A stretch of 49,395 bases of DNA from a virus. Made by a program: the position numbers and the translations under genes. The stretch is taken from positions 1-49,395 of IMG/VR virus record IMGVR_UViG_3300017613_002011; one strand, given 5' to 3'. Numbering within the stretch: position 1 is the stretch's first letter; each line of letters opens with the position of its first letter. Of the stretch, positions 3,010-48,583 are shown piece after piece. The notes under the pieces are model-generated. The model did no database searches, was not told where the DNA came from, and saw nothing but the letters and a program-made list of their open reading frames with translations.

Positions 3010-6000
3010 ATGTCTAACTGGTTAGGTACATGGAAACATAGAAAGAAGATCAATATTGATAAGTCCGATATTGGGAAAAAGTTACGGCATTTTCCTCTTG
3101 CTATTCCTTTGGGAGAAATGGTAGGCAAGAATAAGATCACCGATCTTGATTATGATTTTAGTGGAGAGGATTATAGTGATATCAATTCTCCTTTATGGAC
3201 ACTTTCCAATCCATATGATAAATCCTACATTAAAGATTCTAAGTGGAGATTTGATTCTCTTGCTGAATCCTATGATACAGAGTCCAGAGTAACATCTGCC
3301 TATTTCTTATTGGGTGATTTTGATATTCAGTTGGATTTCGATGTCACCACAATTGATGCTCCTACTACAAGTGCCCAATACGCCGCGGTATTAACCTTAA
3401 TGCTTCCTTCTGGTGATTTTTATGTTGGGAGAGGAAGAACATCAGGAACAAATGGATATGCTTTATCAGGACCAAGTGATACATGGGATTTACATACTTC
3501 TGCCACTCTTGATTCTGGTAAGTTAAGACTCGTCAGGAAAGGTGCAGTACTGACTGGTTATTATTGGACAGGCGCACAATGGGAATGGGAAGGAAGTACA
3601 GCAGGTCATGTATTTTCAGATGATGTACAGGGTCCTGCCCAAGTTCAATTATGGTTCAAACAAGAGGCAAATGAAAACCTCGTTTCTGATATATCCAACT
3701 TTGTTGTAAATGAAGGGATTCCTCAGTGGCCAGAAGGAGCAGGCAATAGAGATAATACCAATGATGTATTTGATGAGCTTGACACATGGAACAACCAGAG
3801 AACAAATGTTGATGATGCCTTTGGTGGATTTGATGGAAAGACTCTTGATACTGAACTCTGGACTATCTCAACAGGAACTCCAACAGTATTAAACAATAGA
3901 TTGGATATGAGCATTGCACCTGGATCGGGATCTACAGTTCCTAATTTTAAATCAGCATTCGACATTAAAGGTGATTTTGACATACAGGCAGATTTTGATG
4001 TACCTGGGTTGACTCATCTTTGGGGTTGTTTTACACATTTTAGAGTTTATGGAGATTCTTGGAATGTCAATGTCACAAGAGGAACCAATTACACAGATGA
4101 ACATATCTCAGCAGGATACAATGGAAGCACAACATGGTCACAGCAAACCGACATTGATTCAGGAACTTTTAGAATAGTTAGGGTTGGATCAAACATTTCA
4201 TTTTATTTTGATATTGGTAATGGAATGCAGAGGATGGCAACTCAAGCTGTAAATACCTCTAATGTTTATATCCTATTTTACAGTTCCCATTATCATGCCT
4301 ATCCTGGGATTGATGCCTATATCAGTAATTTTGTTGTAAATTCAGGCGAGATAGTTTGGCCTAATACATTCCTTGATACTTTTACTGGAGATGATGCAAG
4401 TCAACCTGATGAAGATGCTTGGTACCTTTCTCATGATACTTCTGCCTCAGGAACTTTTCTGATAAATTCCAATAAGTTAAGATCAACAATTCCCGATACC
4501 GCGAATGATGAGTATATGAGGATACAATCTATTTTTGCTGTTGAGGGTGATTTTGACATTCAGGTAGATTTTGACGAGATATCAGCGGACACTCCTTCTG
4601 CCGATAGGAGTTATCCTGAATATTTTGGTGTCAGAATTGACGGTGATTATATTAGGGTAGGAATGAGAATTGATAGTGCAGGTGGAGTAAGACTTCCATT
4701 TCTTAACTCTTTGAATATATCCTTAACAACAGGAACCGCTCCTTACGCCTATACATCAGGAAAGTTCAGACTCACAAGAGTAGGAACAGTCATTAAAGCT
4801 TACTCCTGGTCAGGATCTCAATGGGATTGGGAAGGTGATACAGCAGGATATACATTTGCTGATACAGCCACAGGACATGCCTTTATTGAAATGACTTCAC
4901 AAGCTGAGGTGAATTCTGGTGCCACTGTTGATTGGGATAACTTTACTGTTGTGGAAGGACGAGTCATTTGGCCTTATGGAACTCATCCTAATGCAAAGAA
5001 AATTGCTATCACAATGGATGATGGAGTCACTCAACTTTTCGGAATGATTGAAAATTTTGATGTCTGGAATAAGAGAGGCCTTGTCTGGGCATCAAGAAAT
5101 GATTGGGAATTAGATCCTGATAAGGATAATTTTATTTACCTGTACTTTGATGATGAACAGGAAAAGAATAAATACTATATAGGTAAGACAAATGAAGAAA
5201 TAGATGCCACAACAGAAATTACTGGTGATGCTTTCTCTGGTGAGGATAACGATCCTGTTGACGGATTCTTGTGGAGTAGAGGACACAATCTATGGCAAAC
5301 AAATACTGATGAAAGGTATATGAGGGAAGCCTACTTATTTGATGGTAAGTGTAGACTTAATTGTCCTGAAAGTACTACCACACGATCTTATTCGGTACTG
5401 TTATCCAATTTCTGGCTTGATGGTGATTTTGATATTGAATTCTCTGGAGATGTCAGCAATTGGGGAGCCTCCACAGGAGTAAACAAAGAACTCTCCTTAT
5501 ATCTGTGGCAGACTGAGGCAAATAGAGCCTATGTTAGATTTGATAGTGAGGATGGGTATGTTTCTCAAACGAGTCTAAATGATGTCTGGACTACCTCATC
5601 TAAAGTTGCCGCCTCAGAGACTTATGGAGCCATAAGACTTGTCCGTACAGGAGCAAATGTCAGGACTTATTATAAAGATGGTGCAGGATCCTTTGTTGAA
5701 ATGGATTACACACTGTTTAATGATGAACCCGTATTCCTTCAAATTTTTCAAGCATTTGATAATGAACCTTTCTTTGTAGAGGTTTCTGATTTTAAGATAA
5801 ACTCCGCTGATAAGGTTTCCATCTATCCTGGTGATAATGTCTGGGATTGGTCCTACAGAGGAATTTGGAATCATGCACAAAGTGGTACCAAGAATTCAGT
5901 TGCTCCTGATTGTTGCCGAAGACATTCACATGGGACATATGAGGGAGATATGGATGATGCTGATGTAGTGCAAGGACCCATGGGAGGTCTTGCTCACCAA

Positions 6001-9000
6001 TTAGACGGTACAAATGATTGTGTATCTATTCCGATGCATGATTACCCTGAGGTCGGAGTTGTTGATAAATACTCCATTGCATCTTTTTTCTATCTGCCTG
6101 ATTGGACAACCACTCCTGGAGATTCAAAACCTATGTCTTGTACTCAATCAGGAGGATTTTCTATTGATTTTGATCCTTCTCCTGATGATCTGGATTCAAG
6201 TCATTATATAGCAAGCAGTTATAGGACTCCAACAAGCATAGCACATACCTATTTCTCTCCTGGATATCATTTTGTATACGCCACTTATGATGAAGCAAAG
6301 GTAAAATTCTATGTTGATGGTAAGTTTTTCAGTCATATCAATGTAACAGGAGACTTATCTTACACATTGACCACTCCATTGTTATTGGGAGCAGAACCGG
6401 GAACAACAGGACCGACTGGAGGGTATTTTCCAGGACGATTATTTTATTCAGAGTTATCATGGCAGGCAAGATCATCTGAATGGATAAAGACATTCTATAA
6501 CAACTTGACAGATAACCTTTTATCCTTTGAGCCTAAAGAAGTTCCTTTTCTTACAGGTTTCAATTACAGAAGAAAGGTGATAGTTGATCATACTAAATTA
6601 GGACAGGATCTTACACAATTCCCTCTTGCAATCGTAATGAATGATTCCGCAGGAAAAGATTCACAGGATGTTGCTGATATTTTTAGTGTAATGGCGCCTG
6701 GTGATATCACGGGTGATGATTTCTCTACCTTTAATTCTGATTACTGGACAACTCCTGTAACAGATGCCGCTGATGGATTTTCTTGGGATGCAATAAATGA
6801 GAGAATCAGTTATAAGAGGAATGAAGTCAATCTTGGTGATACAGTTACCTTTTATTCTAAATTCGCTATAGAAGGTGATTTTGACATCCAGATTGACTTT
6901 GGTGGCGCCGATACTATAGCAGTTGACGGTAGAGCCGCCTATCTGAGTATCGCAGGTAATACAATAATGCGATACAGATCAGGTGCCCAGAATGGATACT
7001 GGTATTCCGTTGATGGTGATTCAGGATGGGGCACCTGGCCAGATGATACAGGCAAATTAAGAATTAGACGATATGGAAATTGGGTAAAAGTATACAGATG
7101 GGATGGTGCCGCCTGGGATGAAAGGCGCTCACTGGTCACCACTAATTTTGCTCCATCAAGAATTACATTCCAATGGAGAGCAACTTCAAATGAGGATGCG
7201 GATTACTGGTTAGATAATTTTGAAATCAACCAGGGAACTATTGTTTGGCCTGATGCTTATCATCCTAATATGAAAAAGATCGCCATAACAAAGGATGATG
7301 GGTTAACAAAACTGTACGGAGAGATTGAGAGATTTGATGAGGTCCATCAAGAGATTGTCATTTGGGTAGCTAAAGATGATCTGACTTTATCCTCCAAGAA
7401 GGATACTGAGTTATACATTTACTTTGATCCTGCCGCTGATAAGGATGTGAACTATATAGGATTTCAAGGAAACCCACAGACAGTAACAAATATTACAGGA
7501 GATGCTTTTGCTCTTGAGGATGATGCAGAACCGGACAAAGCATTGTGGTACCCTACATGGGGACAAACTCATATAGAAAGTGAGAAACTGGTAGTTGCTA
7601 CAGATGGTGGCCACAATGGTATTCGTTCTTTGTTTACTCTTAGTGGTGATTTTGATATCAGAATTGATTGGGAAATGGATGCGATTCCCGCAACTACTTC
7701 CTGGGCAATGACTTTAAGGACTGCCGCTGTTGATTCTGCTCTTGATAATTTCTTTACCGTATCAAGAAGATATGATGGCACTCAAATATATAAATCCTAT
7801 AAGACTGATGATGGAGTGGATGGAACCAATACTGATGAAAGCTCAAGCGACACCTCAGGAGTTCTTAGAATTACCAGAGTGAACAATGTCTTTACAGGTT
7901 ATTTCTGGAATGGATCAGGATGGACAACATTAGGAGTTGATACAATTTCAGGAATGGATGGGTATGAGGTTGCTATCCAATTATACTTGACTTGCTGGAC
8001 TTCTAATCCTTCTGTTTCAGGAAAGTTTGATTCACTGGTCATTTTCTCAGGAACAGTAAAATACAATCCTGGCTTTCAAGTATGGGATAATGATTTTGTC
8101 CTTGTTAATCACATGGCACAGGTTCCTGGTACTTCTATTCTTGATTCCTCTAAGATGAGAAACCATGGAACCACATCAGGAATATCATCAAGTGAGAGAG
8201 TTAAAGGAAGCATTGGATGGGGATTTGATTTTGATGCTGATAATGCCCAATTGATAGTTCCTGCGGCTGACTCTATAAATGATCTGCCAAGTGGAGCAAT
8301 GACTCTTGAGGTTTGTGCAAATCCTAATACAGTAGGAGAAGGAGGCTACGGAAGATTTGCCGAAAAAAGAAATGCTCCTAATGCGAACGGCGGATGGAGA
8401 TTCTACACAAGAACCACAGAGGCTATCTATTTTGATACAAGAGATTCAGGTGGTACGCAGGATGCGGCGATCACTTCCGAGAACTATAGTGTTGCCATAG
8501 GAGAACACAATGTGGTTGGATTGACATTCTCTGAGAATGGAGACAACACTCCTGTACTACACAGGGAAGGCAACGAAATCCAAAATCAGTCTCCAACAAT
8601 AGGAGCAGGGGCATCTGGAACTGATGCCGCAGGTGATTTATACATTGGTTCAAGAGAAGCGGATGATAGAACCTTTGATGGAATCATAACTGAGTTCCGT
8701 ATTTCTACCATTCTTAGATCAAAGAATTGGATGAAAGCCACTGGTCATACATTAAAAGACACACTTGTATCCTTTGGAGAACTTGAGACTGATACAGATT
8801 GGTTAGGTACATGGAAATACAGAAGGAAAATTTCAATTGATTTTTCCAACATAGATGAGACTCTTAAACATTTCCCTGTTCCTTTAGTTCTGGGTGATGA
8901 TGTAGGGATGGCTCCTCTTGAAGTAAATTACCTGGGCGATACTTTTGAAGGAACTGATGGTGATCTTCCTAACTCCAATATGTGGACACTCTCATTGAAT

Positions 9001-12000
9001 GATATTGATACTATCACTATACTTAATAACCGATTATATTTTGATTGTAGTACAGTTGCCGGCGATACTGTTGCCTGGGCAAAGTACAAACTTTCTGGAG
9101 ATTTTGATGTTCAAGTAGATTTTGAGGATTTGATTATTGGTGTGGATACTGTTATTGGCATAAGAATAGACATTGCAGGAGACACCTGGTATGGACTTCA
9201 CAATTGCTGGAGATCAGCATCCCCTCATGAATATAGATTAAGAAACGGGGGCGGAGGAAATAGCACAAAAGTAACCACAACAGATAAATGGGGTAGATTA
9301 CGATTAGTCCGAGAGGGAGCAAATCTTAAAGGATACTATTGGGGTGATGCTCAATGGGAATTGATTGATACTTTCACATCCGTAGGAACAGGACTTACAA
9401 CCATAGGACTTCTTTGTTATTCAAATAACAAATTAGCAGAGGCGTACTTTAAAGACTGGAAAGTGAATTCAGGAACTCCTGTTTGGGATGATGGAGAAGG
9501 AAAATGGAGTGTTTCTGATGTTTTTGATGCTATCTCCTACAGACATTATGGATATCTTGATTCTCCTAATGCTTCTTTCTCCGGGACAAATGGTGATCCT
9601 CTTGATTCTAAATTATGGAGATCATCCACAAATGCCGCGGGTGGAACAGCATTGATCCATACCAACAAAGCAAGGATGACTGTTCCTGATGGTGCCGATG
9701 ATGAGTACGTCATTATGTACTGCAATGTTCATCTTTCAGGTGACTTTGAATTTGAGGTAGAATATGAACGAATCTCCAGTGATGCTCCAAGTTCCTCACA
9801 GAGTTATGTTCCCTTATTGACTATGAGAACAGAGGACGGCTATGCTGTTTATCTCGGTCAGTATCACCATACCACAAATGGTCTTAGAATGTACAGGGAC
9901 ACAAACGATACAGGATCTACCTCATATAATGAGCCTTTTGATGTTGGGAAATTAAAAATCAGACGAATAGGAACCACTTACAATCTGGCTTATTGGGATG
10001 GTGATTCTTGGGTTTGGGGAACTCATGTTGGTGGGTTCGATTACGTTAAAGCGGATACATCCAATGTTAGGTTTGAACTAAAAGTCCAGGCTGATTTTGA
10101 TTCAGGAGCAGTTTGTGATATTGTCAGCACCCGGGTCAATTTTGGAACACCTGTTTGGCCTATTGTTTATGAGGATGATTTCACAGGAACAGATACAGAT
10201 CCTCCTAATACAGGATTGTGGGAACTTGTGAATGCTGATGGAACTGATGGACTTATTGAAGTGAATACCGATAATATACGACACACAATAACCTCAGCCG
10301 TGAAATTAATGTACCAACAAAGTTCTTATTACCTTTCAGGTGATTTTGATATCAGAGTAGATTGGGAAAGGGTATCAGACATTGAGCAAAACATATGGTT
10401 AGGTGGTATTAAACTTCAAAGTGATACAAATTTTGGGTTCATAGTTGACATACGATATTCCAGTTTTGTCAAATATAACTCAACCGCTTATATCCCTGCC
10501 GCTCAGACTGCCTCAGCGGTTGCCACTTCTGATACCACTGGCGCTTTTAGAATAGTGAGAGCAGGAACAACTATAACCTCTTATTATTGGGATTCAGTAG
10601 GAGAAGCATATGTCCAATTGTACACCTATACTGGAGCAACCGTAGCTGAACCTGTTAGGGTCTGGCTCAGGACATACACAACTACCTCGATGTCTTTCAC
10701 ATTTGATTTTACCAAGTACAGAGTCATTAACGGACTTGGTGATATGGAGATGGCACATAATCAGCATCCAAACCAGAAAAAGATTGCCATAACAAAAGAG
10801 GATGGTGTTTCTCAGTTATACGGAGAGGTTGATACCTTTGATGATTTCAATAAGAAAATAGTATTGTGGGTCTCCAAAGCTAATTGGGACTTGAAAGCAG
10901 GAAATTTAACTGATCTTTACCTTTACTATGATAGGGATCAGGATGATAATGATACCTATATTGGTACTGCATCTGAAAGTGCCGCACCACAGACAGTATG
11001 GAATAAAGGATTTTATTCTGTCTGGAACTTATCACAGCAATTATATGGGAATGATTTGACTGGTGAAATTCCTAATTCTACTGACCTTGCAGTTAAATTG
11101 ACTCCAAGAGGAGGACAGGGTCCAGGTGCTATCGAATTAGCTCCAATTGGTAAAGCTCAAATACTTGACGGAACCGATGATGGATTTATTCAATCAGGAT
11201 CAATTAGTATGCTTACCTGGTTAACTGCAACAGTCATGTTCAAATCAGGAGACAATACGCAGAAAGGAGCCATATTAGGACACCTCGGGGATGCAAGATG
11301 GACCAACTATGGTAAAGGTATCCAATATGATAGTGGAGGGAAGATCACAATTATAGGTGAATATGGTAATAACAATCCCCCTATTGTAGCCACCGCAGGA
11401 GCACCAAATGAGGATGAATGGTATGTTGTCGATGCTGTATTTGGCAATAATGGAGAATTGTTCATTGATACAGTTTCAAAGGGAACTGGAAAAATTGATG
11501 ATGGTACAGCGTATACTTTTGCTCTTGGTTCCTCTACAAGAAGTAGTGAGAATGCGGCAAACCTTGAAGGATCAATCGCTCTTGTTCAGCTATCCCGTGT
11601 TGTTCGTTCCGATGCATGGCTCAAAGCTAACTTTCATGGAATTAAGGATAACCTGATCACTTTTAAGACCACATCCTTAGAGGAATACGTTGCTCCTCCT
11701 GTGATGGACGAAACAGCTTTAGAGGACATGAGATTAGATATTCAGACTTATCAGGATGTTGTTGAAAATTTAGGTGCTGATATGCTTGTAGGTGGAAATA
11801 TAGTATCTGATATAAAGATGGATCTTTCAGCCTTCTACGAATCAATAGCTGACCTAAAAACTGACTTTAGTTTATTAGGTAATATTTTTGATGATATGTC
11901 TTGGGATGCTCATGTAGGTAAGGATGCATATGATCATCTGAAAATGGAATTATCTGCATACTTTCAGAGCCTTACAGAAACAAAGCTTGATTTAAAAACT

Positions 12001-12333
12001 TTTCAGAGTATAATAGAGACACTTCCATTTGATTTCCACTTAGCGGTAGAGATTAGGGAAGATGGCAAGCTTGATTTTTCTGCCGGTCTTGAATCCTTTG
12101 ATGATTTGAAAGCGGCATTTATTCTGACCCAGAGTATCATTGATAGTGATTGTCCTTTTGACATAGCAATCGGAGACGGGATAATCTACAAGGACAATAA
12201 AATGCACCTTGATGTATCAGACGGTAACAAGAAAGAAAACCTGGGCTTGCATCTGACTATAGTTGCACCTACTCCGGTTTTCAAAGCAATATATGGAATT
12301 CATTTAGAAAGTGCAATTAAGGATGTAACCTAA
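3010..12333 (+). CDS. Giant modular virion adhesin with DUF2341/LamG-like repeats
   Basis: 3107 residues, starting at ATG 3010 behind AGGAG. Three large units begin with a DUF2341-like segment (near residues 3, 1180 and 1930; pattern W..T..YRRK..ID). Each unit also carries a conserved block HPN.KKIAIT.DDG...L.GE (near 657, 1417 and 2583) and ends in a LamG/concanavalin-like domain. Inside the units, a beta module marked by GDFDIQxDF occurs nine times (near 102, 321, 514, 805, 1289, 1545, 2030, 2244 and 2444), split 4+2+3. The last 200 residues change character to amphipathic repeats rich in Asp and Leu (DLKTDFSLL-like), perhaps an attachment or trimerisation region. LamG folds commonly bind glycans, so I infer a receptor-binding or surface-adhesion fibre. 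It is far longer than usual tail fibres. Confidence 0.75.
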   Translation: MSNWLGTWKHRKKINIDKSDIGKKLRHFPLAIPLGEMVGKNKITDLDYDFSGEDYSDINSPLWTLSNPYDKSYIKDSKWRFDSLAESYDTESRVTSAYFLLGDFDIQLDFDVTTIDAPTTSAQYAAVLTLMLPSGDFYVGRGRTSGTNGYALSGPSDTWDLHTSATLDSGKLRLVRKGAVLTGYYWTGAQWEWEGSTAGHVFSDDVQGPAQVQLWFKQEANENLVSDISNFVVNEGIPQWPEGAGNRDNTNDVFDELDTWNNQRTNVDDAFGGFDGKTLDTELWTISTGTPTVLNNRLDMSIAPGSGSTVPNFKSAFDIKGDFDIQADFDVPGLTHLWGCFTHFRVYGDSWNVNVTRGTNYTDEHISAGYNGSTTWSQQTDIDSGTFRIVRVGSNISFYFDIGNGMQRMATQAVNTSNVYILFYSSHYHAYPGIDAYISNFVVNSGEIVWPNTFLDTFTGDDASQPDEDAWYLSHDTSASGTFLINSNKLRSTIPDTANDEYMRIQSIFAVEGDFDIQVDFDEISADTPSADRSYPEYFGVRIDGDYIRVGMRIDSAGGVRLPFLNSLNISLTTGTAPYAYTSGKFRLTRVGTVIKAYSWSGSQWDWEGDTAGYTFADTATGHAFIEMTSQAEVNSGATVDWDNFTVVEGRVIWPYGTHPNAKKIAITMDDGVTQLFGMIENFDVWNKRGLVWASRNDWELDPDKDNFIYLYFDDEQEKNKYYIGKTNEEIDATTEITGDAFSGEDNDPVDGFLWSRGHNLWQTNTDERYMREAYLFDGKCRLNCPESTTTRSYSVLLSNFWLDGDFDIEFSGDVSNWGASTGVNKELSLYLWQTEANRAYVRFDSEDGYVSQTSLNDVWTTSSKVAASETYGAIRLVRTGANVRTYYKDGAGSFVEMDYTLFNDEPVFLQIFQAFDNEPFFVEVSDFKINSADKVSIYPGDNVWDWSYRGIWNHAQSGTKNSVAPDCCRRHSHGTYEGDMDDADVVQGPMGGLAHQLDGTNDCVSIPMHDYPEVGVVDKYSIASFFYLPDWTTTPGDSKPMSCTQSGGFSIDFDPSPDDLDSSHYIASSYRTPTSIAHTYFSPGYHFVYATYDEAKVKFYVDGKFFSHINVTGDLSYTLTTPLLLGAEPGTTGPTGGYFPGRLFYSELSWQARSSEWIKTFYNNLTDNLLSFEPKEVPFLTGFNYRRKVIVDHTKLGQDLTQFPLAIVMNDSAGKDSQDVADIFSVMAPGDITGDDFSTFNSDYWTTPVTDAADGFSWDAINERISYKRNEVNLGDTVTFYSKFAIEGDFDIQIDFGGADTIAVDGRAAYLSIAGNTIMRYRSGAQNGYWYSVDGDSGWGTWPDDTGKLRIRRYGNWVKVYRWDGAAWDERRSLVTTNFAPSRITFQWRATSNEDADYWLDNFEINQGTIVWPDAYHPNMKKIAITKDDGLTKLYGEIERFDEVHQEIVIWVAKDDLTLSSKKDTELYIYFDPAADKDVNYIGFQGNPQTVTNITGDAFALEDDAEPDKALWYPTWGQTHIESEKLVVATDGGHNGIRSLFTLSGDFDIRIDWEMDAIPATTSWAMTLRTAAVDSALDNFFTVSRRYDGTQIYKSYKTDDGVDGTNTDESSSDTSGVLRITRVNNVFTGYFWNGSGWTTLGVDTISGMDGYEVAIQLYLTCWTSNPSVSGKFDSLVIFSGTVKYNPGFQVWDNDFVLVNHMAQVPGTSILDSSKMRNHGTTSGISSSERVKGSIGWGFDFDADNAQLIVPAADSINDLPSGAMTLEVCANPNTVGEGGYGRFAEKRNAPNANGGWRFYTRTTEAIYFDTRDSGGTQDAAITSENYSVAIGEHNVVGLTFSENGDNTPVLHREGNEIQNQSPTIGAGASGTDAAGDLYIGSREADDRTFDGIITEFRISTILRSKNWMKATGHTLKDTLVSFGELETDTDWLGTWKYRRKISIDFSNIDETLKHFPVPLVLGDDVGMAPLEVNYLGDTFEGTDGDLPNSNMWTLSLNDIDTITILNNRLYFDCSTVAGDTVAWAKYKLSGDFDVQVDFEDLIIGVDTVIGIRIDIAGDTWYGLHNCWRSASPHEYRLRNGGGGNSTKVTTTDKWGRLRLVREGANLKGYYWGDAQWELIDTFTSVGTGLTTIGLLCYSNNKLAEAYFKDWKVNSGTPVWDDGEGKWSVSDVFDAISYRHYGYLDSPNASFSGTNGDPLDSKLWRSSTNAAGGTALIHTNKARMTVPDGADDEYVIMYCNVHLSGDFEFEVEYERISSDAPSSSQSYVPLLTMRTEDGYAVYLGQYHHTTNGLRMYRDTNDTGSTSYNEPFDVGKLKIRRIGTTYNLAYWDGDSWVWGTHVGGFDYVKADTSNVRFELKVQADFDSGAVCDIVSTRVNFGTPVWPIVYEDDFTGTDTDPPNTGLWELVNADGTDGLIEVNTDNIRHTITSAVKLMYQQSSYYLSGDFDIRVDWERVSDIEQNIWLGGIKLQSDTNFGFIVDIRYSSFVKYNSTAYIPAAQTASAVATSDTTGAFRIVRAGTTITSYYWDSVGEAYVQLYTYTGATVAEPVRVWLRTYTTTSMSFTFDFTKYRVINGLGDMEMAHNQHPNQKKIAITKEDGVSQLYGEVDTFDDFNKKIVLWVSKANWDLKAGNLTDLYLYYDRDQDDNDTYIGTASESAAPQTVWNKGFYSVWNLSQQLYGNDLTGEIPNSTDLAVKLTPRGGQGPGAIELAPIGKAQILDGTDDGFIQSGSISMLTWLTATVMFKSGDNTQKGAILGHLGDARWTNYGKGIQYDSGGKITIIGEYGNNNPPIVATAGAPNEDEWYVVDAVFGNNGELFIDTVSKGTGKIDDGTAYTFALGSSTRSSENAANLEGSIALVQLSRVVRSDAWLKANFHGIKDNLITFKTTSLEEYVAPPVMDETALEDMRLDIQTYQDVVENLGADMLVGGNIVSDIKMDLSAFYESIADLKTDFSLLGNIFDDMSWDAHVGKDAYDHLKMELSAYFQSLTETKLDLKTFQSIIETLPFDFHLAVEIREDGKLDFSAGLESFDDLKAAFILTQSIIDSDCPFDIAIGDGIIYKDNKMHLDVSDGNKKENLGLHLTIVAPTPVFKAIYGIHLESAIKDVT

Positions 12334-27094: not shown

Positions 27095-27411
27095 TATTCC
27101 AATTGTCCTTTCATTCTTTTGATTTGCCTGCGGAATGTATCACAAATTTTATGCAAGTCTTTTGGTTCTTCATTCAGTAGTCCGATTCCTACAAGTCTTC
27201 TGAATGTTGCAATTTCCTCATTCAGCCCAAAATGCTCAATGATAACTTTGTCATATTCCTGCGCCATTTTGGTCAGTTTTTGAAGGACTCTTTTGTGTGG
27301 TCCTCCTTGACCAAATTTAAAGTACTTCCACTCTTTAGTTGGGAATAATGCTACAAGCTCCTCGAATTCTCCTTCTAATAAATTCAAGGTATAATCAAGC
27401 GGTGGTGCCAT
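27094..27411 (-). CDS. Hypothetical helical protein
   Basis: 105 residues, helical, with a basic C-terminus (FRRQIKRMKGQLE). Overlaps the end of the SbcC-like C-terminal half by 17 nt. No recognised family; being coupled to the repair genes it may be part of the same function, but the sequence does not show how. Confidence 0.5.
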   Translation of the reverse strand: MAPPLDYTLNLLEGEFEELVALFPTKEWKYFKFGQGGPHKRVLQKLTKMAQEYDKVIIEHFGLNEEIATFRRLVGIGLLNEEPKDLHKICDTFRRQIKRMKGQLE

Positions 27412-28021
27412 GTTGAATCTCCTTTAAGGTTACGTGACTTACTTCATTTTCTTTTACCACTCCAAACTGCCGATCAGCGGATCTTGCTAATGGCAATTGG
27501 TGTGTAACGATTATAAATTGTAATCCACCCTCCATTCTGCTTAGATTTTTGATCATCATAGCGGCGAGAGGTTGTTTTTCTGCATCCAAATTCCTCATTG
27601 GTTCATCAAGTACTAACACATTTCTTGAATCGCCGTCAAGCTTCCAGTACGCAACCCTTAGAGCCAATGAGGCTATGTCTGCGGCACCGTATCCGCAGGA
27701 TGCAAGAGGTGACTTTCTTTTCCCATTTTTCTCAAACATCAGGTCACATTCAGTTGTATTCCTTCTGGGAACGAAATCAACGACAAAGGTATAAGGATCT
27801 TCAAATACTGCCGCTAATGCACTGGACACAATTCCTGATATCTGTTCGGACAATTGAGACTGAGTTACCTGTGCCGCTTTCTGAAAGATGGCTCTGGCTT
27901 CCTCAAGATCCTCAAGATGATCCAGATATTTATCCAGCTTATCTTTTTGCAGATCAAGGATTTTCTTTGCCGTTCTTCTATCATCGACCTTGTCTTTTAA
28001 TTTATCCAGTAATTTCTTCAT
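27395..28021 (-). CDS. SbcC/Rad50-like ATPase, C-terminal half
   Basis: 208 residues. A coiled-coil stretch (1-60) leads into the C-terminal ATPase lobe: ABC signature-like SCGYGAADIASLALRVA at 108-124, Walker B VLVLDEP at 135-141, D-loop NLDAEK, and switch His in VTHQ at 172-175. There is no Walker A in this gene. Together with the product of 29565-30659, which has the Walker A lobe, it would make one complete SbcC/Rad50 head. Works with the SbcD-like nuclease at 28245 in double-strand-break processing. It overlaps the short coil gene by ATGA. Confidence 0.8.
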   Translation of the reverse strand: MKKLLDKLKDKVDDRRTAKKILDLQKDKLDKYLDHLEDLEEARAIFQKAAQVTQSQLSEQISGIVSSALAAVFEDPYTFVVDFVPRRNTTECDLMFEKNGKRKSPLASCGYGAADIASLALRVAYWKLDGDSRNVLVLDEPMRNLDAEKQPLAAMMIKNLSRMEGGLQFIIVTHQLPLARSADRQFGVVKENEVSHVTLKEIQHGTTA

Positions 28022-28248
28022 TGGAGTAAATGCTCAAATTCTTTTTTGAACTTAACCTCACCATTCTTGTAATGAGTGTTCATTTTTTCCAAAGTGCCTT
28101 TCAGCTTGGTTCTTTGCTTCTTTGCTTCTCCGAGATTTTTAAATCCCAGACCTTTCAAGGACTTCATAAGCATTTCCTTTTGCCCGAGAAGTTTATCCCT
28201 GTTTTTTTCCTTCTGTTTAACAACCTTTGTCATTTGTATTAGGTTCAT
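28018..28248 (-). CDS. Short coiled-coil protein, probable SbcC/Rad50 middle fragment
   Basis: 76 residues, nearly all Lys, Glu and Leu, with heptad-like spacing (KKQRTKLKGTLEKMN, KFKKEFEHLL). It sits between the SbcD-like gene and the SbcC C-terminal half with ATGA overlaps on both sides. I infer that it supplies part of the descending coil missing from the C-terminal half. No other function is visible. Confidence 0.6.
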   Translation of the reverse strand: MNLIQMTKVVKQKEKNRDKLLGQKEMLMKSLKGLGFKNLGEAKKQRTKLKGTLEKMNTHYKNGEVKFKKEFEHLLQ

Positions 28249-29186
28249 GCTGACACTCTCTCCATTGTTGAATTTATTATGCTTCTGACACTATCCTTGG
28301 GTTCTGCATGATCGACAACATTATTCAGGATCTTTTTGAAATTGGGACGTTCCCTGTCATTCTTAGGCAGAGTATCAATGAACTCCGCTATCTTTGCCTC
28401 AGCCTCAGCTTTCGCATCCTCTTTGGCTTCCTCAATGACAATCTTATTGAAGTCAAAAACATCCTCATCCGGAAGACATGGAATCTTTACAGGTTTTGCT
28501 TTCCATGTAGATGAATCAATGATCCAGCATCTTGGCTGAAATCCTATTTGGGATTTAGTTGATCTTACCAGTGATCCACAGTTTACCTGTAATTTGTCTT
28601 TTGTCCTGAGAGCATGTGGCATGTGATTGTCACCAGTGATAATACACTTTGCCCACGGATACTTTCTCAAGATCGAATGTGCTGTGGAATAGTTAGTCTG
28701 ACCAGGCCAGAGTTCACCTTTCTTTGTAACCATTCGATGCATGACAAGAACATCTGCCTCATCCTCTGGTTCTTCATTCCATCCAGCACCTACAAAATTG
28801 ATTCCTTTGCATCTTGTCAATTGAGGAGTTAAGACAGTAACCTGTCCTGATGTTTTCAGAATTCCCAAAGGAGTATTGTCAAGACCTGATACATGATATC
28901 TTAGGTCATGCTGTCCCGGCACTACAAGAATGGTAACATCACTATTCTTGATTATTTCAAGGACTTTATTAGCAACCTTATAAGGAACATTAGGAGCATC
29001 AAAGAAGTCTCCAGCAACCACTAACAACTTAGGTGCTGAGTGTTTCTCCGTTATCTCAAGAAGTTTGGAGAATTTCTTGATAACTTGTCCATAATAATCA
29101 CCCTTTCTATTTTCAGGAACTTTAGAATGGATATGAAGATCAGCACAGGCTATAAAGTTCTCCATTGTTTTTATGACTGTTGCCAT
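28245..29186 (-). CDS. SbcD/Mre11-like nuclease
   Basis: 313 residues. Calcineurin-like phosphoesterase motifs appear in order: ADLHIHS (D16, H18), VVAGDFFDAP, GQHDLR (GNHD with Asn replaced by Gln), VLVMHR and ITGDNHMPH. This is the nuclease partner of SbcC/Rad50, acting on DNA ends and hairpins with manganese. The C-terminal 80 residues are helical and Ala/Glu-rich, a plausible SbcC-binding region. The Asn to Gln change in the third motif is unusual, since that Asn normally contacts metal or phosphate. Confidence 0.85.
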   Translation of the reverse strand: MATVIKTMENFIACADLHIHSKVPENRKGDYYGQVIKKFSKLLEITEKHSAPKLLVVAGDFFDAPNVPYKVANKVLEIIKNSDVTILVVPGQHDLRYHVSGLDNTPLGILKTSGQVTVLTPQLTRCKGINFVGAGWNEEPEDEADVLVMHRMVTKKGELWPGQTNYSTAHSILRKYPWAKCIITGDNHMPHALRTKDKLQVNCGSLVRSTKSQIGFQPRCWIIDSSTWKAKPVKIPCLPDEDVFDFNKIVIEEAKEDAKAEAEAKIAEFIDTLPKNDRERPNFKKILNNVVDHAEPKDSVRSIINSTMERVSA

Positions 29187-29374
29187 TACCAGGACTCCTC
29201 TTTAGAGCAAATGGAACACTTGTAATGGGTTTTGTGAGAATCATGCCCATCCTCTACAAAGTCATGATCACATAAATCCTGTAAAGCTTTGATTGCTTTA
29301 TTCACCTTAGCCAGTTTCTCATGCAATTTCTTCCGTTCCTCATGTAGAGGTTCTACACTTTCCTTCTTGATCAT
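29186..29374 (-). CDS. Small coiled-coil plus zinc-knuckle protein
   Basis: ATG 29374 overlaps the previous stop as ATGA and has a GGGTGGAAAAA site. 62 residues: a heptad-like helix (RKKLHEKLAKVNKAIKAL) then C/H residues (LCDHDF, DSHKTHYKCSICSKEE) that could bind zinc. It resembles a miniature Rad50-hook-like coil with a metal site, but this is speculation; it may be an unrelated regulator. Confidence 0.5.
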   Translation of the reverse strand: MIKKESVEPLHEERKKLHEKLAKVNKAIKALQDLCDHDFVEDGHDSHKTHYKCSICSKEESW

Positions 29375-29595
29375 TTTTTCCACCCATGTTTGCAGGATCT
29401 GCATTTATATTTGGTAACCGTTTTGTATGTGACGGTATGCTCCTCAATTGGCTTTGTCCAGTCAATGTCCTCCTTGACTTTGAATGTTTCACTCCACATA
29501 TCCGCATAAAAATTACCACATTTAGGACATGTTTTGTATACCCGATATACATCAACAGTTTCCACTATTTTCCCGTCCTTCCACAAGTTGGGCAT
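29371..29595 (-). CDS. Zinc-ribbon protein starting inside the Rad50 hook codons
   Basis: 74 residues: CPKCGNFYADMW and YKCRSCKHGWKK form a zinc ribbon. The start ATG 29595 has GGAG 8 nt upstream and lies inside the upstream gene; the bases coding for its CPTCG hook are read here as PNLWKD in another frame. Overlap is 31 nt. Function unknown; may bind nucleic acid or a partner in the SbcCD set. Confidence 0.6.
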   Translation of the reverse strand: MPNLWKDGKIVETVDVYRVYKTCPKCGNFYADMWSETFKVKEDIDWTKPIEEHTVTYKTVTKYKCRSCKHGWKK

Positions 29596-30659
29596 TCGTA
29601 ATTCTCCCTTATGGCTGTATATTCTATTCTTGCCTCAGTTAGTTTCCTTTCAGCAATTTTTAATTCCTTATCATTGTAATCAATCTTACCTAACAAGGAA
29701 TCAATGTTGCCTAATAATTCCTCATCTTCTTCAATGTTCGTCCTGAACGTTTTTAGCTCATTTAAGACGTTTAAAGCTTTTTCTATGTCAGTAGTACTTG
29801 ATAACTCTAAATCAATGCGTGAAGCATCATATATCAAGTCCTCTATGCTATCCAGAGTTGCTTGTGTATCGTTGATCTCTTGAGTTTGCTTTTCAAGAAT
29901 CCCTATGCTGATTTTGGCGGCCTTTAGACCATCGAATTTCTGTAAGGCTTTGTTTACCGTATCAATGTCAAGTATGGTATCCTCAACCACTTCCAATTCA
30001 AGTGCTTTTTCCATCATTTTATTTTGGAAGTCCGCAAGTTTCTTGGCAAGTTTCTCTGCATCAACTACCCACAAAGTATCTTCCAGTTCCTCCTTGCGAT
30101 TGTCAATCTCCTCTTTTGCAACATTTATTTCAGCATTGCAAGTCCTCACTTGAGAATTGATATCCGCTGTTGCTTTATCCATGATAGTCAATCCAGCAAC
30201 TTTATTGAATTGCTTTGCTACCTGACCAGGCTTATCTGCAAGTAAGAAATATTGTTCCGTGGGATGCTGTCCCTGGATATTAACTTCCTTCATTTGAGTT
30301 ACATCCCGTACCTCGTCAGGAACATCTGTTCTCAAGGCACGTAAAGGTTCATCCTGATCAATCACATAATGATTAACACCGCCAGCAAATCCGTCTCTTG
30401 CTCTTGTTACAAGACCAGTTCCCTCATACACAATGCCAACCTCAGTTGCTTTTAACTTGTCCTCTTTTTTCTTAGGATCAAGTACATCATTTCGATAACT
30501 ATCTCCCTGAGGTCTGTTTTGTGCATTCCACTTGATTGATCGAACTATTCCTGACTTTCCTTCATCTGATTCTCCGACAAAGGAATTCACGCCAGGATGA
30601 AGTTCAACCTCAGTATCAAGGTGAGTTTCAAAGTTCTTGATTGTTAAGGAATTAATCAT
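29565..30659 (-). CDS. SbcC/Rad50-like ATPase, N-terminal half with zinc hook
   Basis: 364 residues. Walker A is at 29-36 (GESDEGKS) behind a typical SMC-type opening (SLTIKNFETHLD). A long coiled coil fills about residues 170-355. The chain ends YECPTCGRTGK: a CxxC zinc hook only four residues from the stop. The C-terminal ATPase lobe is absent and is encoded separately at 27395-28021. Full SbcC proteins usually continue through the hook into a descending coil, so this is a split gene rather than a random truncation: the break is exactly at the hook. Partner of the SbcD-like nuclease. Confidence 0.8.
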   Translation of the reverse strand: MINSLTIKNFETHLDTEVELHPGVNSFVGESDEGKSGIVRSIKWNAQNRPQGDSYRNDVLDPKKKEDKLKATEVGIVYEGTGLVTRARDGFAGGVNHYVIDQDEPLRALRTDVPDEVRDVTQMKEVNIQGQHPTEQYFLLADKPGQVAKQFNKVAGLTIMDKATADINSQVRTCNAEINVAKEEIDNRKEELEDTLWVVDAEKLAKKLADFQNKMMEKALELEVVEDTILDIDTVNKALQKFDGLKAAKISIGILEKQTQEINDTQATLDSIEDLIYDASRIDLELSSTTDIEKALNVLNELKTFRTNIEEDEELLGNIDSLLGKIDYNDKELKIAERKLTEARIEYTAIRENYECPTCGRTGK

Positions 30660-45844: not shown

Positions 45845-48583
45845 TCATGCGGCCTCCTTCCAAATTTCTAAGCTTGCATTATCAGGATCAACCTCTCTAA
45901 GATCAGAAAAGTTTCCTCCATCTTCTCTTAACTGTGATATTTCAGCCTCGACTTCCATCGGAATAATCAACCAAGGAAATTCTCCCTGTAACCCTTTAAC
46001 AATTTTATTCACTCCTGCGTGGTAGAATTTGATCTCATCCTCAGGAACGTTACTGATAATACTATCATGAATCTGTCCGACTATCTTGGTTTTCAGGTTG
46101 TTCTTATCAATGAATTTCTGTACCTCAATCAGAGTGTATACCAACATGTGGAAACTTGCTGACTGGATTGGAAAGTTAGTACATTGATTGTCTGACATAT
46201 ATCCTGAAAATCTGAAACCAAAGTGATTGGGAATAAACCCATGATCCCTGTATTCGTTGACAATATCTTCTTTCCACTTAGTATATACAGGAAATCTTTC
46301 ATTCCACATCTTCTCTTGAACATGGGCACAATGTTCCATGAAACTGCCTTCAGTTGGACCATCTTTCTCAATTTCACCCAGTTCATAGATGCCTTTTTCT
46401 TCAAGCCATTCCCTGCATGTCATTCCGTTAGGAAGTTCTAAGTCAGCCTCAATGACATTCTCCCAGAACATTGGAGCGCAAGAACCAAACCAATCACCGT
46501 AGAACTGAGCAAAGGTCCAATTGTTCTTGGCAAAGAATCGAATCATCTTGACCTTCTTCTTTTGTTCCAGAGTATAGTCAGGATTCTCAAGCATGTCAGG
46601 TGGAAGCATCAAAAGGTCAGTTGCATTATCACGATGCATATCCGTTGCAGGATCAATCAGATAATTGATGAAAGTTGGATCTTTGTGATAAGTGGCAGAA
46701 GTGATAACCTCTGCACCTGAAAAGTCAATTTCAGATAGAACACAACCACGTTTAGGAACAATCCCTTTTCTGATTATTGCCTTGATCTCTGCATCACGTT
46801 TAGGAATATTCTGAAAGTTCGGTTTTGATGATGAACTCCTGTAACTGACAGGAATATTCAAATCCCAGAACGGATACATCTTTGTCCTGAATATCTCTCT
46901 TGCAAACTGACCAAGATACGTTCCCTTGGCTTTCTCGTACTTTTTCATTTGCAGGAGTTTTTTGACATAGGGTAAGTTCAAACCCTCAAGAGTCATTTTA
47001 TCCGTCTTGTATCCGCCTTTAGCAGTATAGACAGGATCTTTTCCCAGAACTTCATAGAACAGCTTTCCTAAGTCCTGATTGGAAGTAATCTTGATTGGTC
47101 TGTGAAACATCTTGTGAAACATACTTGCCTCACGACCACTCTCCAGTTCCGCTTTCAGCTTGTCTATCTTCTTGCCTAAGTCAATTTCCGCTTTCTGATA
47201 GTACTTAGAATCCATGTTGATACCATTCAACTGGATCTTAGCCATCTGATTGTTGCCTTCCATGAAGAAATTGTAGGCACTCAACATGCTCTTGGAATGA
47301 ACATCAACCTCACCCAAGACTGATCTCAAGGCATCACTTAGATTTCTCCTCTTTGTGATCTGAGGCATTTGTTGCTCATAGACCATCCACCCATAAATGC
47401 AGTCAAGTCCATTGTATGTGAGGAGTTCTTTAAAAGGAGCTTTCTCAACCGTATTGAATTCACCATTCTTTGATTTCAGGAATGGAGCAATCTCTTTATC
47501 ATATGGACGAACACCGAACCTTACGAATGTCTGAAATTTCAAACCTGTCGATGCTGATCTATTATCCAGGACATGTTCACACATCATGGTATCAAAATGA
47601 ATCCTGGGAAGAACATTAAAGAAGACCATTGACCAGACTTGCTCAAACTTGGCATTATGAGCCATCTTGAGGATTTCATCATCTGCAAGAATCTTCTTCC
47701 AGAGTTTCTTAATGACCTTTAGTTCTTTTTCTGTCCAGAAACTTTTCCACTGATAAGGAAAAGCGAATGCTTTTGTTGGAGATACTGCAACTCCGATGGT
47801 GACAATCTTGTGTCCTTTTCTAAAAGGCTTTAAGCCTGTCGCCTCATAATCGAAGTATATTTTTGACTTACGTTGTAGGATGCGTTTTAACAGCTTTTTA
47901 ACACGCCCGAAGTCAGTCAGTAGGGTTACATTGTCTTCATAGTTCTTTTGCTGAATAACCGGGCGTTCCAACTGTCTGATAGCAAATTTTAAGTCCCGAT
48001 TGAATACACTCTCAAGGTTTTTGTCTTTCTTCTTCTTTTTTGTCCTGAAAATATGATAAGGATGATAAAGAGGAATGATATTACAACCATACACTTGATC
48101 AGGTATAACATATTTTCTCCATCTGTGGATACTTCTGTTTGAGTAGTCTTTTCCGAACAAGGATGATACAGCAAGATCACCCATAAGTAAGATTAATTTA
48201 GGTTTGAGTTGTGTGATTACCTTTTTTAGATAAGGGAAACAACTCTGTACTTGAGCAGGACTTGGAAGAGTGTGTCCATCAGGGCAACATCTGATCGCAT
48301 TTACTTTCCAGCAATCACGATTCATATCAACATTATTGAACCTTAATTGTTGCCTTAGAGGATCGCCACGTTCTCCATAGAAATGCTGATTATAGACATC
48401 ATCCTCGTCACTTGAGAATTCACCTATAATCAGTATTCCTTTCTTTCCCTGCCCTGAGTACTCCATTCTCGGGTGGTCACACTTTTTGTATAACCCACAG
48501 GATAAGCAATCTGATTCAAGATCATTGATATCAACCTTTACCTCAGATCGCTTTTGCAGTTGGGTTTTGGTAAAGAAACCCAT
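45845..48583 (-). CDS. Family A DNA polymerase with N-terminal UDG-like domain
   Basis: 912 residues. N-terminal domain (1-210): cysteines C26, C29, C99 and C115 match the spacing of the 4Fe-4S cluster in family 4 uracil-DNA glycosylases, with GEFSSDEDD and YHPYHIFR in the places of their active-site motifs. Next is a DnaQ-like 3'-5' exonuclease (FDYEATG with D245 and E247). Polymerase motifs: A DFSGAE near 618, B RFFAKNNWTFAQFYG near 675-690, C QIHDS near 837. Motif B has one extra residue between Lys and Phe, as I recall for SPO1-type polymerases. No 5'-3' exonuclease domain is present. This is the replicative polymerase; the clamp gene precedes it by 3 nt. Confidence 0.9.
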   Translation of the reverse strand: MGFFTKTQLQKRSEVKVDINDLESDCLSCGLYKKCDHPRMEYSGQGKKGILIIGEFSSDEDDVYNQHFYGERGDPLRQQLRFNNVDMNRDCWKVNAIRCCPDGHTLPSPAQVQSCFPYLKKVITQLKPKLILLMGDLAVSSLFGKDYSNRSIHRWRKYVIPDQVYGCNIIPLYHPYHIFRTKKKKKDKNLESVFNRDLKFAIRQLERPVIQQKNYEDNVTLLTDFGRVKKLLKRILQRKSKIYFDYEATGLKPFRKGHKIVTIGVAVSPTKAFAFPYQWKSFWTEKELKVIKKLWKKILADDEILKMAHNAKFEQVWSMVFFNVLPRIHFDTMMCEHVLDNRSASTGLKFQTFVRFGVRPYDKEIAPFLKSKNGEFNTVEKAPFKELLTYNGLDCIYGWMVYEQQMPQITKRRNLSDALRSVLGEVDVHSKSMLSAYNFFMEGNNQMAKIQLNGINMDSKYYQKAEIDLGKKIDKLKAELESGREASMFHKMFHRPIKITSNQDLGKLFYEVLGKDPVYTAKGGYKTDKMTLEGLNLPYVKKLLQMKKYEKAKGTYLGQFAREIFRTKMYPFWDLNIPVSYRSSSSKPNFQNIPKRDAEIKAIIRKGIVPKRGCVLSEIDFSGAEVITSATYHKDPTFINYLIDPATDMHRDNATDLLMLPPDMLENPDYTLEQKKKVKMIRFFAKNNWTFAQFYGDWFGSCAPMFWENVIEADLELPNGMTCREWLEEKGIYELGEIEKDGPTEGSFMEHCAHVQEKMWNERFPVYTKWKEDIVNEYRDHGFIPNHFGFRFSGYMSDNQCTNFPIQSASFHMLVYTLIEVQKFIDKNNLKTKIVGQIHDSIISNVPEDEIKFYHAGVNKIVKGLQGEFPWLIIPMEVEAEISQLREDGGNFSDLREVDPDNASLEIWKEAA

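Follow-up and report, generated by a model that had tools for sequence, protein, structure and literature searches.

SbcCD of E. coli, Pyrococcus Mre11-Rad50 (MR) and T4 gp46/gp47 each combine the two halves of an ATP-binding cassette (ABC) ATPase head with a long arm, a CxxC hook and a calcineurin-like partner. Models of Rad50 and SMC proteins generally assume a single chain leading outward to the hook and returning from it, and the communication between head, coil and hook in these proteins is an open question. Here we describe a locus in the IMG/VR viral contig IMGVR_UViG_3300017613_002011 (positions 1 to 49,395; hereafter the window, meaning this whole stretch of 49,395 nt) that presents the same head halves, long arm, hook, nuclease partner and recombination-gene setting, but differs from SbcC/Rad50 in that Rad50 is made as two or three chains with the break at the hook, the hook lies at a C-terminus and the signature is of the GxG type. 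The N half (N), the C half (C) and the nuclease (D) of this locus are homologous to Rad50 and Mre11; the split position is invariant, and the catalytic motifs and the hook are conserved. Together with a small protein, K, they probably form one four-subunit Mre11-Rad50 (SbcCD)-like machine whose ATPase head is assembled in trans.

Rad50 lobes on separate polypeptides are found in the Pyrococcus structures 1f2u, 1ii8 and 3qkr, which are among the top Foldseek matches of the phage proteins and which are laboratory constructs forming a working head. The arms of these constructs are truncated, whereas the phage proteins are split in nature and have both an arm and a hook. The SbcC-like protein of Achromobacter phage JWF (670 aa) likewise has a GxG-type signature, a CPAC hook motif and an SbcD-like neighbor but, unlike the split systems, is one continuous chain with the hook in its middle. 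PHROG 15167 and PHROG 16465, the families of the C and N halves, are listed separately and have not been recognized as one Rad50.

Fusions of Mre11 and Rad50 have been reported for Mimivirus R555, a Clostridium kluyveri plasmid and Bacillus phage 0305phi8-36, and the fusions of the Bacillus phage and of Anaerostipes were noted to lack one P-loop segment (Yoshida et al., 2011; PMC3175470). These fusions carry the nuclease ahead of the Rad50 N lobe, like the D-N chains of Firmicutes plasmids described below; the P-loop-lacking ones are perhaps of this D-N type, with C encoded elsewhere. A hook split, separate K and C genes and permuted C-N forms are not described in the consulted parts of that paper. 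No earlier account of a hook-split, terminal-hook or permuted Rad50 was found in the open-access literature, bioRxiv preprints not included; full Mre11-Rad50 fusions have been known since 2011.

Rad50 and Mre11 homologs encoded by the window

The four genes lie on the minus strand: N (29565..30659; 364 aa) comprises the Walker A lobe, the arm and a C-terminal hook motif; D (28245..29186; 313 aa) is the SbcD/Mre11-like nuclease; K (28018..28248; 76 aa) is a small protein, helical as judged from its sequence; and C (27395..28021; 208 aa) starts with a helix (aa 2-72) that is followed by the Walker B lobe. Re-reading of the sequence returned the same coordinates, lengths and motifs of N, K and C, and the same position of the nuclease, as the initial annotation of the window had given.

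A Rad50-type Walker A lobe occupies the N-terminus of N, with a best Protein Data Bank (PDB) match to Rad50 in a single-sequence search (3.5e-4), a family-profile match to the Rad50 N lobe (E 8.9e-16) and a match to PHROG 16465 (exonuclease; 1.6e-20). Its Walker A motif GESDEGKS (aa 29-36; 30552..30575, minus strand) is conserved in the alignment, and the top Foldseek match of its AlphaFold2 (AF2) model (mean pLDDT 79.9) is the Pyrococcus Rad50 chain 1ii8_A. The CPTC hook motif (aa 356-359; 29583..29594, minus strand) is followed by five residues and the stop codon, so that the chain ends in CPTCGRTGK, in agreement with the four residues that the initial annotation had counted after CPTCG. Both hook cysteines are invariant in 17 aligned N sequences, though identity to the window N falls to about 20%. 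A CxxC motif, predicted from sequence to bind zinc, is present in 33/33 intact N chains, and in all of them the last CxxC is terminal, 3-58 residues from the stop (median 10). These 33 chains are related sequences, and the chance figure of 10^-54.6 for this pattern was accordingly not used as a probability.

The complementary lobe, with Rad50-type Walker B, D-loop and H-loop, is found in C (family profile against the Rad50 C lobe, E 2.8e-16; best PDB match in a single-sequence search Rad50, 1.3e-5; PHROG 15167, ATPase, 7e-23). The AF2 model of C (mean pLDDT 86.9) has the Pyrococcus Rad50 chain 1ii8_B as its top Foldseek match. D139 and E140 of its Walker B motif VLVLDEP (aa 135-141; 27599..27619, minus strand) are invariant in the alignment, as is the H-loop TH (aa 173-174, in a VTH motif; 27500..27505, minus strand). 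Walker B positions assigned by regular expression across the systems were incorrect for Geobacillus and Acidiphilium and were disregarded. The claim that signature, Walker B and D-loop form a lobe encoded by a gene of its own thus stands for the lobe, but the sequence aligned to the Rad50 LSGGER signature is a divergent SCGYGAAD (aa 108-115; 27677..27700, minus strand), with GYGA in place of a canonical SGGE/Q.

Assignment of D as a calcineurin-like phosphoesterase relies on a Metallophos match above the Pfam cut-off (PF00149, 1e-8), a match to Mre11 in the PDB (2e-7) and the alignment, in which DLH (16-18), GDFFD (59-63), GQHD (91-94) and GDNH (185-188) are conserved. A C-terminal stretch of D is conserved as well and may correspond to the helix-loop-helix through which Mre11 binds Rad50.

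A search for the canonical SbcC Pfam family PF13558 (SbcC_Walker_B) returned no match in the window, while the control search was positive in 12/14 genomes, and none in nine records with split systems, in which SbcC PHROG matches fall mostly on the halves. Neither half, moreover, is one chain with a mid-chain hook between an ascending and a descending coil. Because the locus lacks a continuous chain, a hook in mid-chain, an SGGE signature and a PF13558 match, we do not classify it as canonical SbcC; it is a divergent variant whose mode of action is probably like that of SbcCD.

The split is maintained across divergent phages and plasmids

Relatives were drawn from IMG/VR scans (contigs designated L), named phages and plasmids. 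Since a highly diverse alignment yielded no conserved block, profile searches were started from single proteins and closer alignments, and most deep relationships are profile matches. Beyond the window, the order N-D-K-C is shared by 12 nonredundant viral contigs in which N is intact (L001, L008, L009, L011, L012, L013, L020, L021, L022, L023, L024 and L029) and by phage Mvi-JY20; L009, which is the same contig as L037, is binned with a Cloacimonadota metagenome-assembled genome. L025 has the same arrangement with a partial N frame, and the Ignavibacteriales contig L038 encodes N, K and C, D not being found in the stretch examined. Carriers of the four genes include Bacillus, cyanobacterial and Acidobacteria phages, a 485-kb phage (LR745208; all four genes inside 9 kb, interspersed with others) and Firmicutes plasmids.

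Other gene orders occur in Bacillus phage vB_BboS-125 and in the Firmicutes plasmids. The former has N, an AP2/HNH gene, K and C, followed by D, an SbcD-like open reading frame (ORF) that is unannotated (L003 6424-7404; NC_048735.1 22423-23403). The AP2/HNH-type gene between N and K (L003 4584-5156) may be tied to the splitting of the gene. In Tunturi_5, N, K and D lie on the minus strand at 124-128 kb (N at 127 kb) and C is a plus-strand gene at 19 kb, which places N and C more than 100 kb apart on opposite strands; its N ends in LCGKCGDPISKSAA. In phage Magritte, C is at 0.3 kb and N at 94 kb. Magritte genes 244 and 247 had been considered as D and N and were rejected as unrelated by alignment, the true N being gene 155 by profile.

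The initial annotation had interpreted the break at the hook as an architecture assembled from subunits. The rival possibility of decay or sequencing error, in which indels broke a formerly continuous SbcC gene, can draw on a single frame-shifted copy in L032, where the hook codons near the end of N are in a different frame, and on a Cetobacterium plasmid in which N is divided between two overlapping ORFs (C and D of this plasmid are separated by an annotated IscB gene, L058 6639-7892). This explanation is nevertheless very improbable, given that the breakpoint is identical in the 33 intact N chains of very divergent elements, that D, the AP2/HNH gene or small ORFs separate the parts, that the halves can be on opposite strands, and that the motifs are invariant. 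Nor is the window a lone broken genome among continuous relatives: all close relatives with intact N are split at the hook. A stable architecture, which the hook-terminated fused relatives described below also support, is therefore upheld.

Alternatively, frameshifting, readthrough or protein splicing might reunite the halves in the cell as an ordinary SbcC. The short K/C and D/K overlaps would permit translational coupling, but D and other genes lie between N and C, with dozens of in-frame stops in L008, and the opposite orientation of N and C in Tunturi_5 is equally hard to reconcile with rejoining. Inspection of the sequences by eye revealed no intein, although no dedicated intein search was made. 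An apparent continuous 1281-codon frame in L008 was rejected, the frame being full of stops. We consider rejoining scarcely credible.

Fused and circularly permuted relatives

Among Firmicutes plasmids, the Bacillus velezensis p3 plasmid has the order N-K-C-x-D and an Alkaliphilus plasmid the order D-N-K-C, while six in all encode a nuclease-N fusion with separate K and C. In plasmids of Geobacillus, Aneurinibacillus, two Paenibacillus and Brevibacillus, a single D-N chain is followed by K and C nearby, and in a Jeotgalibacillus plasmid the D-N chain is followed by K, with C about 74 kb away. Mre11 and Rad50 are not on one chain in the window; among its relatives, the nuclease-N fusion is confined to these Firmicutes plasmids.

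Proteobacterial megaplasmids encode yet another form, a single chain with the C lobe first, the N lobe second and the hook near the chain end, with a K-like ORF before it and a D-like gene after it (seven of 21 matching records were read). As judged from its domain order, this C-N chain is a circular permutant in which the original termini are joined and the new ends lie at the hook. Among SbcD-like proteins next to such chains, those at L059 7823-8731, L066 4944-5816, L069 5135-5911 and L070 5357-6130 look degenerate in their metal-binding motifs, and those of Variovorax, Bosea and Acidiphilium look intact. In a C-lobe tree, the D-N forms constitute one supported clade (97/96) and the C-N forms another (100/99); support is weak at the deeper forks, and the tree has several long branches.

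Protein K and the composition of the arm

K is a separate gene in every system in which it was found. It is present wherever N and C lie together, directly precedes C in many systems and adjoins N in Tunturi_5 although C is distant. Profiles of phage and Firmicutes (Gram-positive) plasmid K align (E 2.3e-6, probability 89%); the link to the K-like ORFs that accompany proteobacterial C-N chains falls short of significance (hhalign probability 4.6%), and family-profile and structural-relative searches with K yielded no significant known-family match and no convincing structural relative. These patterns bear on the idea that K is an unrelated small gene, for instance a regulator, that travels with the operon outside the Rad50 complex. 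Such an origin would fit its shortness, weak conservation, loose relation to arm length and lack of a significant known-family match, but its presence in every system with N and C together, its place directly before C in many of them and beside N in Tunturi_5, and the alignment of phage and plasmid K profiles make it the less likely, if still appreciable, possibility.

If K belongs to the complex, its contribution to the arm appears limited. In unpermuted systems the distance from Walker A to the hook ranges from 279 to 486 (a span of 207 residues) and K from 75 to 97 aa (a span of 22), the two being correlated at 0.56 across 26 related systems. Tandem repeats are found in N arms, with a period of 47 residues in the clade of the window, and the N arms of L022 and L029 contain one repeat unit more with K nearly unchanged (77-81 aa). 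Because the arm varies by 207 residues and K by 22, and because N arms bear repeats, K could partner the arm only in part. The initial proposal that 76 residues of K and about 60 of C partly make up for the missing descending arm is hence not established. Given its place just before C in many systems, K may correspond to the outer part of the descending arm, while the near-constant length of K and the tandem repeats of N suggest that the distal arm is probably self-supporting or paired with the other N arm.

One variant of the four-subunit machine, rather than a full alternative to it, has a distal arm unlike that of Rad50: two N arms would run in parallel, or each would double back on itself by means of its tandem repeats, and neither would be matched by a descending K/C strand. 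The 47-residue repeats, the additional unit in L022 and L029 at a K length of 77-81 aa, and an AF2 arm broken into helices 158-240, 245-288 and 292-353 favor it, and the N model, with a pTM of 0.36, leaves helix packing uncertain; we regard this variant as a serious possibility, somewhat short of an even one.

A proposed four-subunit Mre11-Rad50-like machine

Physical assembly, docking of D, zinc dimerization, enzyme activity, the role of K and the biological role of the complex are all inferred from homology. In the machine that we propose, N and C would each provide half of every ABC-ATPase head, joined in trans, and the arm would start from a base made up of two paired helices, the long first helix of C (aa 2-72) and the first one in the arm of N (aa 158-240). 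D would dock at this base through its conserved C-terminal helices, and K, as a separate helical subunit, would brace or cap the arm. At the far end, the C-terminal CPxCGR motifs of two N arms would share one zinc ion and thereby clasp the arms. Even four-residue CxxC peptides form dimers that bind zinc, and the Gly and Arg that follow the second Cys contribute to the turn of the hook peptide (PMC5093744). Because short hook peptides form zinc dimers and the window tail keeps GR, as do most N tails in its clade, such a zinc joint is plausible by analogy, although it would be expected to be weaker than a full hook. The complex would be used like T4 gp46/gp47, in DNA-end processing for recombination and replication, a role suggested by the adjoining replication genes.

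Several observations weigh against this interpretation. All C lobes compared, split or fused, have a signature of the form G-[GYH]-[GSA]-x or similar glycine-rich variants, while the title of PDB entry 1us8 describes the signature motif of canonical Rad50 as essential to ATP binding. Compared with the metal-binding set of SbcD/Mre11 (DxH, GDxxD, GNHD, H and GHxH), D of the clade of the window reads GQHD for GNHD and GDNH for GHxH, substituting Gln and Asp for a metal-binding Asn and His; D of vB_BboS-125 retains canonical GNHD and GHDH, and the same His-to-Asp change is reported at the corresponding position of Mimivirus R555 (PMC3175470). In Pseudomonas, Vibrio, Alteromonas and Aeromonas, the D-like proteins encoded next to permuted C-N chains look degenerate, and Magritte N (gene 155; L047 3339-4391) has no CxxC. 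Moreover, K length hardly tracks arm length, and arm geometry is not readable from the models, which are of single chains and have a low pTM for N.

Could the two halves instead be parts of a defense-type ATPase, related to mad3, AriA or LmuB, rather than of a repair nuclease? PADLOC mad3 matches both C (6.6e-15) and N (6.2e-8), and AriA matches N (2.1e-12), but the likeness to the single-chain ABC ATPase of a mad3 or AriA defense operon is one of profile only, and the genes here are split. A partner that is SbcD-like, or a degenerate form of such a protein, accompanies nearly all examined systems, the hook motif is retained, and the window genes sit among replication and recombination genes, making a defense ATPase an improbable reading. 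The mad3 matches to both halves are, in themselves, a hint of ancestry shared with a defense ATPase.

Gene junctions and genomic setting

Transcription on the minus strand follows the order N, 74-aa ORF, 72-aa ORF, D, K, C. Of the junctions, all of which the initial annotation had described as ATGA or short overlaps, D/K and K/C are indeed 4-nt ATGA overlaps and C overlaps the next gene by 17 nt, but N and D lie 378 nt apart. This gap is filled by two small CxxC-bearing ORFs, one CxxC-rich (29371..29595, minus strand; 74 aa), with its start codon within the hook codons of N, and one with a helix and a CxxC (29186..29404, minus strand; 72 aa). In L001 the gap between N and D is 2 nt, without a CxxC-rich ORF, and both ORFs probably lie outside the core module.

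The surrounding genes constitute a T4-like replication and recombination set that includes UvsX, SSB, clamp, clamp loader and Pol A, as well as a 5'-3' exonuclease, endonuclease VII, ligase and dCMP deaminase. The Pol A of this set (45845-48583, minus strand) is a family A DNA polymerase that carries a uracil-DNA glycosylase domain at its N-terminus. A 3107-aa ORF without PHROG match lies at 3010-12333 (plus strand).

Implications for Mre11-Rad50 complexes

In many lineages the Rad50 chain has been cut at the hook, and its halves have been re-fused in other orders, with most catalytic motifs and the hook kept; long-range signaling along the arm could thus be tested piecewise in small proteins. 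The split also accounts for phage and plasmid genes whose current annotation is exonuclease, ATPase, ParA or hypothetical protein; half-genes of this kind can conceal a repair complex from annotation.

It is possible, though less likely than not, that these systems make up a separate terminal-hook class of Mre11-Rad50 machine, in which the arm is never the closed loop of one chain. The apex would then be a joint of subunit assembly that may open, arm length would shift by whole repeats, and joining the original termini of a hook-split Rad50 would have given rise to a natural circular permutant. Were this the case, the Rad50 cycle would need no covalent continuity through the hook, and the hook could be a gate for DNA entry.

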